Assembly (NCBI GenBank): GCA_027593125.1
Contig: JAQCJL010000004.1
Coordinates: forward strand, 1-51,749
Length of the DNA stretch: 51,749 nucleotides
Direction: 5' to 3'
From: Pseudomonadota bacterium
Lineage (GTDB): Bacteria; Pseudomonadota; Alphaproteobacteria; Puniceispirillales; UBA1172
Numbering within the stretch: position 1 is the stretch's first letter; each line of letters opens with the position of its first letter. Both the position numbers and the translations under genes were made by a program. The notes beneath the pieces were generated by a model. It did not search any database. It was not told where the DNA came from and saw only the letters and a list, made by a program, of their open reading frames with translations. Below, piece by piece: positions 1 through 537 of the stretch.

Positions 1-393
1 AGGTCTGTTGCCCAAGACCTTTGCTACATACTCACTATTCCGTCTAGCCGTTCGAACAAAGATACGGTCAGTGTTACCCTTGATGGAAAGGTACATATCC
101 ACTGCATCCAGCATAACAGGGGAGGTGTATTCCACATCATCTGTCTTCACGAGATGGATAGCAGGGATGTCCATTTGCTGTAGACGAAGACCAAGCCAAT
201 AGTCCTCAAGCCTCTGTGTCACTGACTGTGCCGCACGGACTGCACTAGCATATGATTTGGTCTTCAAGCTGAAGGACAATCTATCAGAAGCATAATGCTT
301 CTTCACATCATAGGGGACACGTCTAGTGTAATAGTAAACCCCATCTCTGTTGGACACATAACGAACATCAGAATTGTACATCAATCTGTACAT
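1..393 (-). CDS. Tyrosine recombinase/integrase, N-terminal part (cut by window edge)
   Basis: The minus strand is open from about 417 to the window edge; the C-terminal catalytic part lies outside. I chose ATG 393 because GAGGTG lies just upstream; ATG 417 and 381 are alternatives. The 131 visible residues contain SNRDGVYYYTRRVP followed by SFSLKTKSYASAVRAA, the pattern of the DUF6538-type N-terminal domain of phage-like integrases, and then a helical core-binding region ending in LGNRP. The active-site residues are not visible. AGA and AGG arginine codons are frequent, unlike the neighbouring genes, which fits foreign origin. It lies just downstream of the 3' end of tRNA-Gly, the usual place for an island integrase. 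The family call is fairly secure; whether the full gene is intact cannot be judged. Confidence 0.8.
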   Translation of the reverse strand, partial: MYRLMYNSDVRYVSNRDGVYYYTRRVPYDVKKHYASDRLSFSLKTKSYASAVRAAQSVTQRLEDYWLGLRLQQMDIPAIHLVKTDDVEYTSPVMLDAVDMYLSIKGNTDRIFVRTARRNSEYVAKVLGNRP

Positions 394-462
394 CACCACA
401 CCTCGCAGACATTGCATAATGCCTACAATTCAATGTGTTAGCACATAATATGATGAGATATA

Positions 463-537
463 TGGAGCGGGTGATGAGATTCGAACTCACGACCCTTACC
501 TTGGCAAGGTAATGCTCTACCCCTGAGCTACACCCGC
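463..537 (-). tRNA. tRNA-Gly (GCC anticodon)
   Basis: Read on the minus strand the sequence folds as a standard cloverleaf. The acceptor stem pairs GCGGGTG with CACCCGC, the D arm contains AGCTCAGGGGTAGAGC, the anticodon loop is CTTGCCAAG with anticodon GCC, and the T arm contains GTTCGAATC. The discriminator base is T and CCA is encoded (463-465). The gene is 75 nt with CCA, normal for tRNA-Gly. An integrase reads away from its 3' end, so the 3' half is the probable attachment core of an integrated element, with the tRNA rebuilt intact. Confidence 0.95.

Follow-up and report, generated by a model that had tools for sequence, protein, structure and literature searches.

A tRNA-Gly(GCC) locus in a SAR116-order genome as the probable left end of an integrative element, and an inverted internal attP-like site in its relatives

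Introduction

Tycheposons are the best-known oceanic example of tRNA-targeted integrative elements. PMC10872708 presents them as cargo-carrying transposons of 4-200 kb in Prochlorococcus, for which seven tRNA genes are described, and reports them in Methylophilaceae as well. The elements studied here resemble that description: their tyrosine recombinase sits at the border with a tRNA, their cargo is metabolic, their hosts are aquatic and they use several tRNA targets. However, the recombinase here has a DUF6538 N terminus, and an inverted internal attP-like site is not mentioned for tycheposons in the available portion of that account (PMC10872708). A second likeness is with archaeal elements of the pT26-2 type, whose closely related integrases target many different tRNA genes (review PMC8371274), as the related integrases do here. 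Those are archaeal plasmid or suicidal integrases, however, and their diversification has been ascribed to the evolution of specificity and not to an internal copy of attP (PMC8371274).

The elements also share the general layout of tRNA-targeted islands: an integrase behind a tRNA 3' end, an intact tRNA, variable cargo and, in relatives, a duplicated tRNA 3' end at the opposite boundary. They depart from it in two respects, since near-identical integrase ends stand behind different tRNAs within one genome (tRNA-Gly and tRNA-Arg in G006) and complete relatives hold a third, internal and inverted attP-like site. Our literature search found no description of these elements in SAR116. We regard the locus analyzed here as a true mobile-element left end that is ordinary in kind; what sets it apart is that its family uses many targets and includes elements with an inverted attP-like site inside them.

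Results and Discussion

The integrase fragment and its target tRNA

The stretch of DNA analyzed (the window, 51,749 nucleotides) starts at base 1 of contig C23 of its own assembly, G000, which is MAG-like, has a length of 1.99 Mb in 175 contigs and is 96.7% complete. The host is a SAR116/Puniceispirillales MAG, and the named relatives among the matches are SAR116 or Ca. Puniceispirillum genomes. ARAGORN placed the sole tRNA of the window, tRNA-Gly(GCC), at 463..537 on the minus strand, with its 3' end at 463. This tRNA is the integration target, and the same neighbor, a DegT-type aminotransferase gene, lies beside it in G003, G001, G006, G007, G008 and G010. Its 3' end forms the attachment core CTCATCACCCGCTCCA (463..478, minus strand). 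The left end of the element, or L-arm (418..462, minus strand), was delimited by alignment of relatives and separates the tRNA from the 5' part of a DUF6538 tyrosine recombinase gene (1..417, minus strand), which is open over 139 codons up to the contig edge that cuts it. The first-pass annotation had described an integrase reading away from the 3' end of tRNA-Gly(GCC), and this orientation was confirmed: the gene starts about 45-46 bp behind the tRNA, on the same strand. Candidate start codons are the ATG at 417 and the GTG at 396 or ATG at 393, and conservation with relatives begins at 396/393.

The DUF6538-like character proposed for the N terminus was likewise borne out by a match to Pfam family PF20172 at 184..357 on the minus strand (E 6.6e-17; 61.4-62.9 bits, against a curated cut-off of 27). 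The AGA/AGG-rich codon use claimed for the fragment holds for AGA and fails for AGG. These two codons make up 7 of its 15 arginine codons, six of them AGA and a single one AGG, as compared with 25 of 159 in eight neighboring genes (Fisher p 0.008). The GC content of the fragment is 0.458, that of neighboring genes 0.487.

Since the window begins at base 1 of the contig, it is the assembly that truncates the fragment, and the gene itself need not be broken. The catalytic C-terminal half lies beyond the contig end, and the gene could not be completed within its own genome: a search of the 175 contigs of G000 for that half returned only a 26% relative, on C14. A full-length relative from G027 (L105:1331-2479) contains both DUF6538 and the Phage_integrase domain PF00589, the latter matching residues 206-365. 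Read by eye, its motifs ETGMRLSEAAGL, HSFRHALRDRL, GGW and GETYGEGY are consistent with the tyrosine-recombinase residues R, H-R, W and Y. The window integrase shows 73-77% identity to full-length or longer relatives and 84-97% identity to the copies in G006 and G001; the fragment had no match by sequence among solved structures. Among the distinct starts of this integrase family that were collected, the tRNA targets comprise Gly(GCC), Gly(TCC), Arg(ACG), Arg(TCG), Thr(CGT/TGT/GGT), Leu(GAG/CAG), Phe and Asn. Each start with a detectable tRNA follows the 3' end of that tRNA at a distance of 22-53 bp and shares its strand, a consistency that excludes a chance adjacency of tRNA and integrase.

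A common left end behind different tRNAs

The left end, followed by the integrase start, occurs behind tRNA-Gly(GCC) in G006:C27, G001:C10 and G037:C41 (with an integrase identity of 76-77% in G037), behind tRNA-Arg(ACG) in G006:C31, behind tRNA-Thr(CGT) in G067:C251 and behind tRNA-Thr(TGT) in G027:C10. When the Gly and Arg copies of G006 are aligned, 54 of 77 columns match within the tRNA, 12 of 16 match immediately after it and 248 match in the following 251. A nearly unchanged integrase end is thus found behind two different tRNAs of one genome, and the alignment places the onset of the homologous unit at the tRNA 3' end or slightly beyond it. Both left-end contigs of G006 end at the identical base of the integrase gene, and contigs also end inside this gene in the window, in G067 and in G037. 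Such breaks would fit repeated or population-variable islands that disrupt assemblies.

It had been proposed that the locus is the edge of a tRNA-targeted island with its cargo to the left. This reading is partly supported; no far end was found in the genome itself. Because a near-identical left end recurs behind different tRNAs, and because the right end found in G006 carries a second tRNA-Gly 3' end, we consider it very probable that a SAR116-order integrative element is inserted at the 3' end of tRNA-Gly(GCC) and that the fragment represents its left end (attL side); complete relatives carry cargo, which argues for a cargo-bearing element. Recombination between an attP core and a tRNA 3' end is the standard scheme for tyrosine integrases. 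Most likely, the DUF6538-type recombinase would act in this predicted manner, joining a circular element to the tRNA by way of the ~16-nt copy of the tRNA 3' end. An intact, working tRNA would remain in front of the integrase. Behind the right arm, the displaced tRNA 3' end would mark the far end of the element, and the cargo would have lain to the left, outside the contig. We infer that this copy has an intact integrase, an active recombinase and a complete element.

Comparison with genomes that lack the insert supports this reading. In G008 and G010, which belong to the same family, tRNA-Gly(GCC) is followed by a terminator-like hairpin (identified by eye) in place of the integrase. Within the genus there is no clean empty site, as the nearest relative, G003, has no integrase and keeps about 40 bp of the left end as a remnant. 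Short integrase stubs of about 14-75 codons are also frequent behind a tRNA or an R-arm in relatives (G001, G005, G022, G063 and G089). Remnant and stubs alike lend some weight to the alternative that the element has decayed, its deletion sparing the tRNA and leaving behind the left end and a partial integrase. However, the 139 stop-free codons of the window exceed the stubs seen and are conserved (73-77% to full-length or longer relatives), and a contig end inside the gene, as in G067, G037 and G006, fits a repeated or variable island better than a true gene end. We therefore judge decay to be unlikely, if still worth weighing, and favor the left end of an integrative element.

Right end and attachment core

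The core TCATCACCCGCTCCA occurs once in G000, in the tRNA itself, and twice in G006. The second G006 copy, at C40:96632 (L115), has on one side an arm of about 120 bp, which ends in GGCTTCGAAC and leads into the core, and on the other side different DNA. The right end of the G006 element consists of this arm and a 16-nt copy of the tRNA-Gly 3' end. We infer the pairing of the two G006 ends, since they lie on separate contigs. The same arm and tRNA-Gly 3' end are present in G001:C118 and G005:C27, where a further left end comes next, its integrase reduced to a stub of 50 codons; this arrangement reads as a tandem junction or a relic. At the right end, G002 and G006 are 99% identical on the island side and 92% identical in the flank, as expected of recently moved DNA. 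Matches to the right arm were recovered in 20 of the 61 genomes searched, and most of them run into a tRNA 3' end.

A second copy of the tRNA 3' end had been anticipated as the far att site. It is present in G006:C40 and was not found in the incomplete assembly of the window's own genome, where searches with a 22-mer (up to 3 mismatches) and a 15-mer (up to 1 mismatch) matched only the tRNA itself and the right arm gave no match. The missing att site, right arm and integrase half do not refute the reading, because the 175-contig assembly is incomplete. One candidate for the right flank, G000:C77, was rejected: the TauD gene, which in G006 lies next to the right end, there adjoins isocitrate lyase, with no att remnant. 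With both ends and the target range now defined for an order-wide element family, islands can be found by their ends alone in broken MAGs.

As a separate observation, the stretch behind the outer right arm of G007 (L164, 13005-13200) begins with the tRNA-Asn 3' end GTCCCGGGGAGCCATTTTCCTTACTTTC and is repeated about 100 bp further on, possibly as a relic of several integrations.

Complete relatives and their cargo

Complete relatives measure roughly 10-55 kb and carry metabolic operons and sometimes replication genes (cargo was named by Pfam for selected proteins and by reading translations for others). In G016, a 2.75 Mb genome in one contig, tRNA-Arg(ACG) is followed by the integrase, a primase-helicase-like gene (AEP-TOTE, DUF5906), a GH32 hydrolase, a sugar ABC transporter and a ROK-like regulator, and then the right arm. 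The G022 element, at tRNA-Gly(TCC), contains the integrase, a methyltransferase, a TRAP-type transporter and gamma-glutamyltransferase-like genes. Two elements are found at tRNA-Asn, one in G025 with the integrase, sulfatase-like and transporter genes, the other in G007 with the integrase, a Prim-Pol/PriCT primase and an AAA_25 ATPase. The contig of the A-type relative L053 (TMED93) opens within tRNA-Gly(GCC), of which it has the 3' part, and continues with an integrase 73% identical to the window fragment, a convergent ORF of 237 aa and molybdopterin-binding genes of the CO-dehydrogenase type; the part covered runs inward from this near end. The family is thus a carrier of CO-dehydrogenase, sugar-use and transporter operons. 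It had been suggested that the cargo could hold defense or other accessory systems. Metabolic, transport and replication genes were encountered, and no defense genes were noticed in the elements read. No relaxase or type IV secretion genes were noticed on reading through the ORF lists of relatives.

Prophages commonly have a tyrosine integrase at a tRNA 3' end, and the fragment might accordingly mark the end of a temperate phage genome instead of a cargo-bearing island. The cargo argues against this, as relatives carry metabolic operons and primases, and no phage structural genes were noticed in the ORF lists of complete relatives, for which Pfam was run on a subset of proteins. Furthermore, the fragment had no match in PHROGs, and viral contigs gave no match by protein or by left-end and right-arm DNA; phage matches amounted to two weak ones, at 32% over 67%. 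A phage origin is therefore improbable. It is hardly conceivable that the first few hundred bases are a chimera of assembly or binning, as a contig end inside the integrase of a MAG-like, 175-contig assembly might suggest, because the order of tRNA, left end and integrase recurs in G006, G001 (84-97% integrase identity), G037 and L053, and relatives show synteny across the tRNA and the genes on its right-hand side.

An inverted attP-like site inside related elements

Six B-type elements have two right arms on one contig (G007, G016, G022, G025, G041 and G019). In every pair the arms point outward: one is located directly behind the integrase or its following gene, the other at the far end. The inner site is complete, with R-arm, tRNA 3' end and L-arm, and lies inverted behind the integrase. 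An inner inverted attP-like site is also present in L053, which shares its tRNA-Gly(GCC) target with the window. In the loci with an inner site (L164, L195, L196, L197/L198, L199, L200 and L053), inverted right arms that face outward form the boundaries of the cargo. We know of no precedent for an internal inverted attP-like site.

The tRNA 3' end and left arm recur as exact inverted copies that span 88 bp in L053, 66 in G025, 63 in G041, 37 in G016 and 33 in G007, and are shorter in G037 (18 bp) and G022 (11 bp); values in 200 shuffles never rose above 12. Inner and outer arms are 100% identical in G007 and G016, 99.2% in G025, 97.5% in G022, 92.5% in G019 and 85% in G041, against a mean of 71% for arms of different elements, among which the best cross-genome pairs also reach 92.5%. 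The inner core fits the present tRNA of the element in L053 and in four of the five B-type cases with a known tRNA; the mismatch is G022, where the inner core fits tRNA-Arg(ACG) and the element sits in tRNA-Gly(TCC). Judging from arm identity and core fit, the inner site seems to be a duplicate of the attP of the element that holds it, kept similar to the ends of that element. The element of the window may well have such a site too, given that L053 shares its integrase type and target tRNA.

Two other explanations of the inner site were considered and rejected. It is present in three single-contig genomes (G007, G016 and G022), which rejects an assembly artefact, and the R-arm pairs are not independent transposon ends, as the arms run into tRNA 3' ends that fit the element's own target in four of the five elements with a known tRNA.

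Oppositely oriented sites on one molecule recombine to give inversion (PMC8371274). The inner site could for this reason invert the cargo or the integrase module. We advance, as a tentative proposal that is more likely wrong than right, that each element has two attachment sites, its ends and a second, complete, inverted attP, which could invert one of these modules or switch the tRNA core. Recombination of the second site with the right end would invert the cargo, and that of the left end with the second site the integrase module; either attP could also be used with a differing tRNA core, the inner site acting as the second one. Most simply, the inner site may instead be a functionless by-product that recombination keeps similar. 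Integration through the inner site would place the methyltransferase gene behind a tRNA. None of the seven closest methyltransferase copies shows this arrangement; an R-arm junction precedes five of them, and the other two have neither a junction nor a tRNA in front. If the proposal of two attachment sites were true, it would couple gene orientation and the switching of target tRNAs in one element type across an ocean-wide order of bacteria. It could also account for the near-identical integrases seen behind tRNAs for Gly, Arg, Thr and Asn. Were the inner attP functional, the switching of tRNA targets by an unchanged integrase would be directly testable.

A gene for a SAM-dependent methyltransferase is repeatedly found next to the inner att site (L196:1950-2726, minus strand; L205:16013-16789, minus strand; L200; L216). 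In G022, G037 and G019 it lies between the inner att site and the integrase. It is convergent with the integrase gene and has a leader sequence much like that of the latter.

Other tRNA-integrase pairs and tRNA copies

The genome of the window contains three pairs of a tRNA and a DUF6538 integrase, at tRNA-Gly (C23), tRNA-Phe (C36) and tRNA-Ser(GCT) (C14). The C36 locus is a second island edge: behind tRNA-Phe lies the start of a DUF6538 integrase gene (L071, 3-326, minus strand), which is likewise cut by the contig end and has a short deletion in comparison with relatives. On C14, a full DUF6538 integrase frame of 425 aa lies behind tRNA-Ser(GCT) (L135, 9734-11190, plus strand). Finally, complete and identical copies of tRNA-Gly(GCC) occur 13.2 kb apart in G027:C10 (L103, 5993-6067 and 19205-19279) and 10.3 kb apart in G034:C45 (L108, 2707-2781 and 12966-13040), as if other elements carried the whole tRNA gene.
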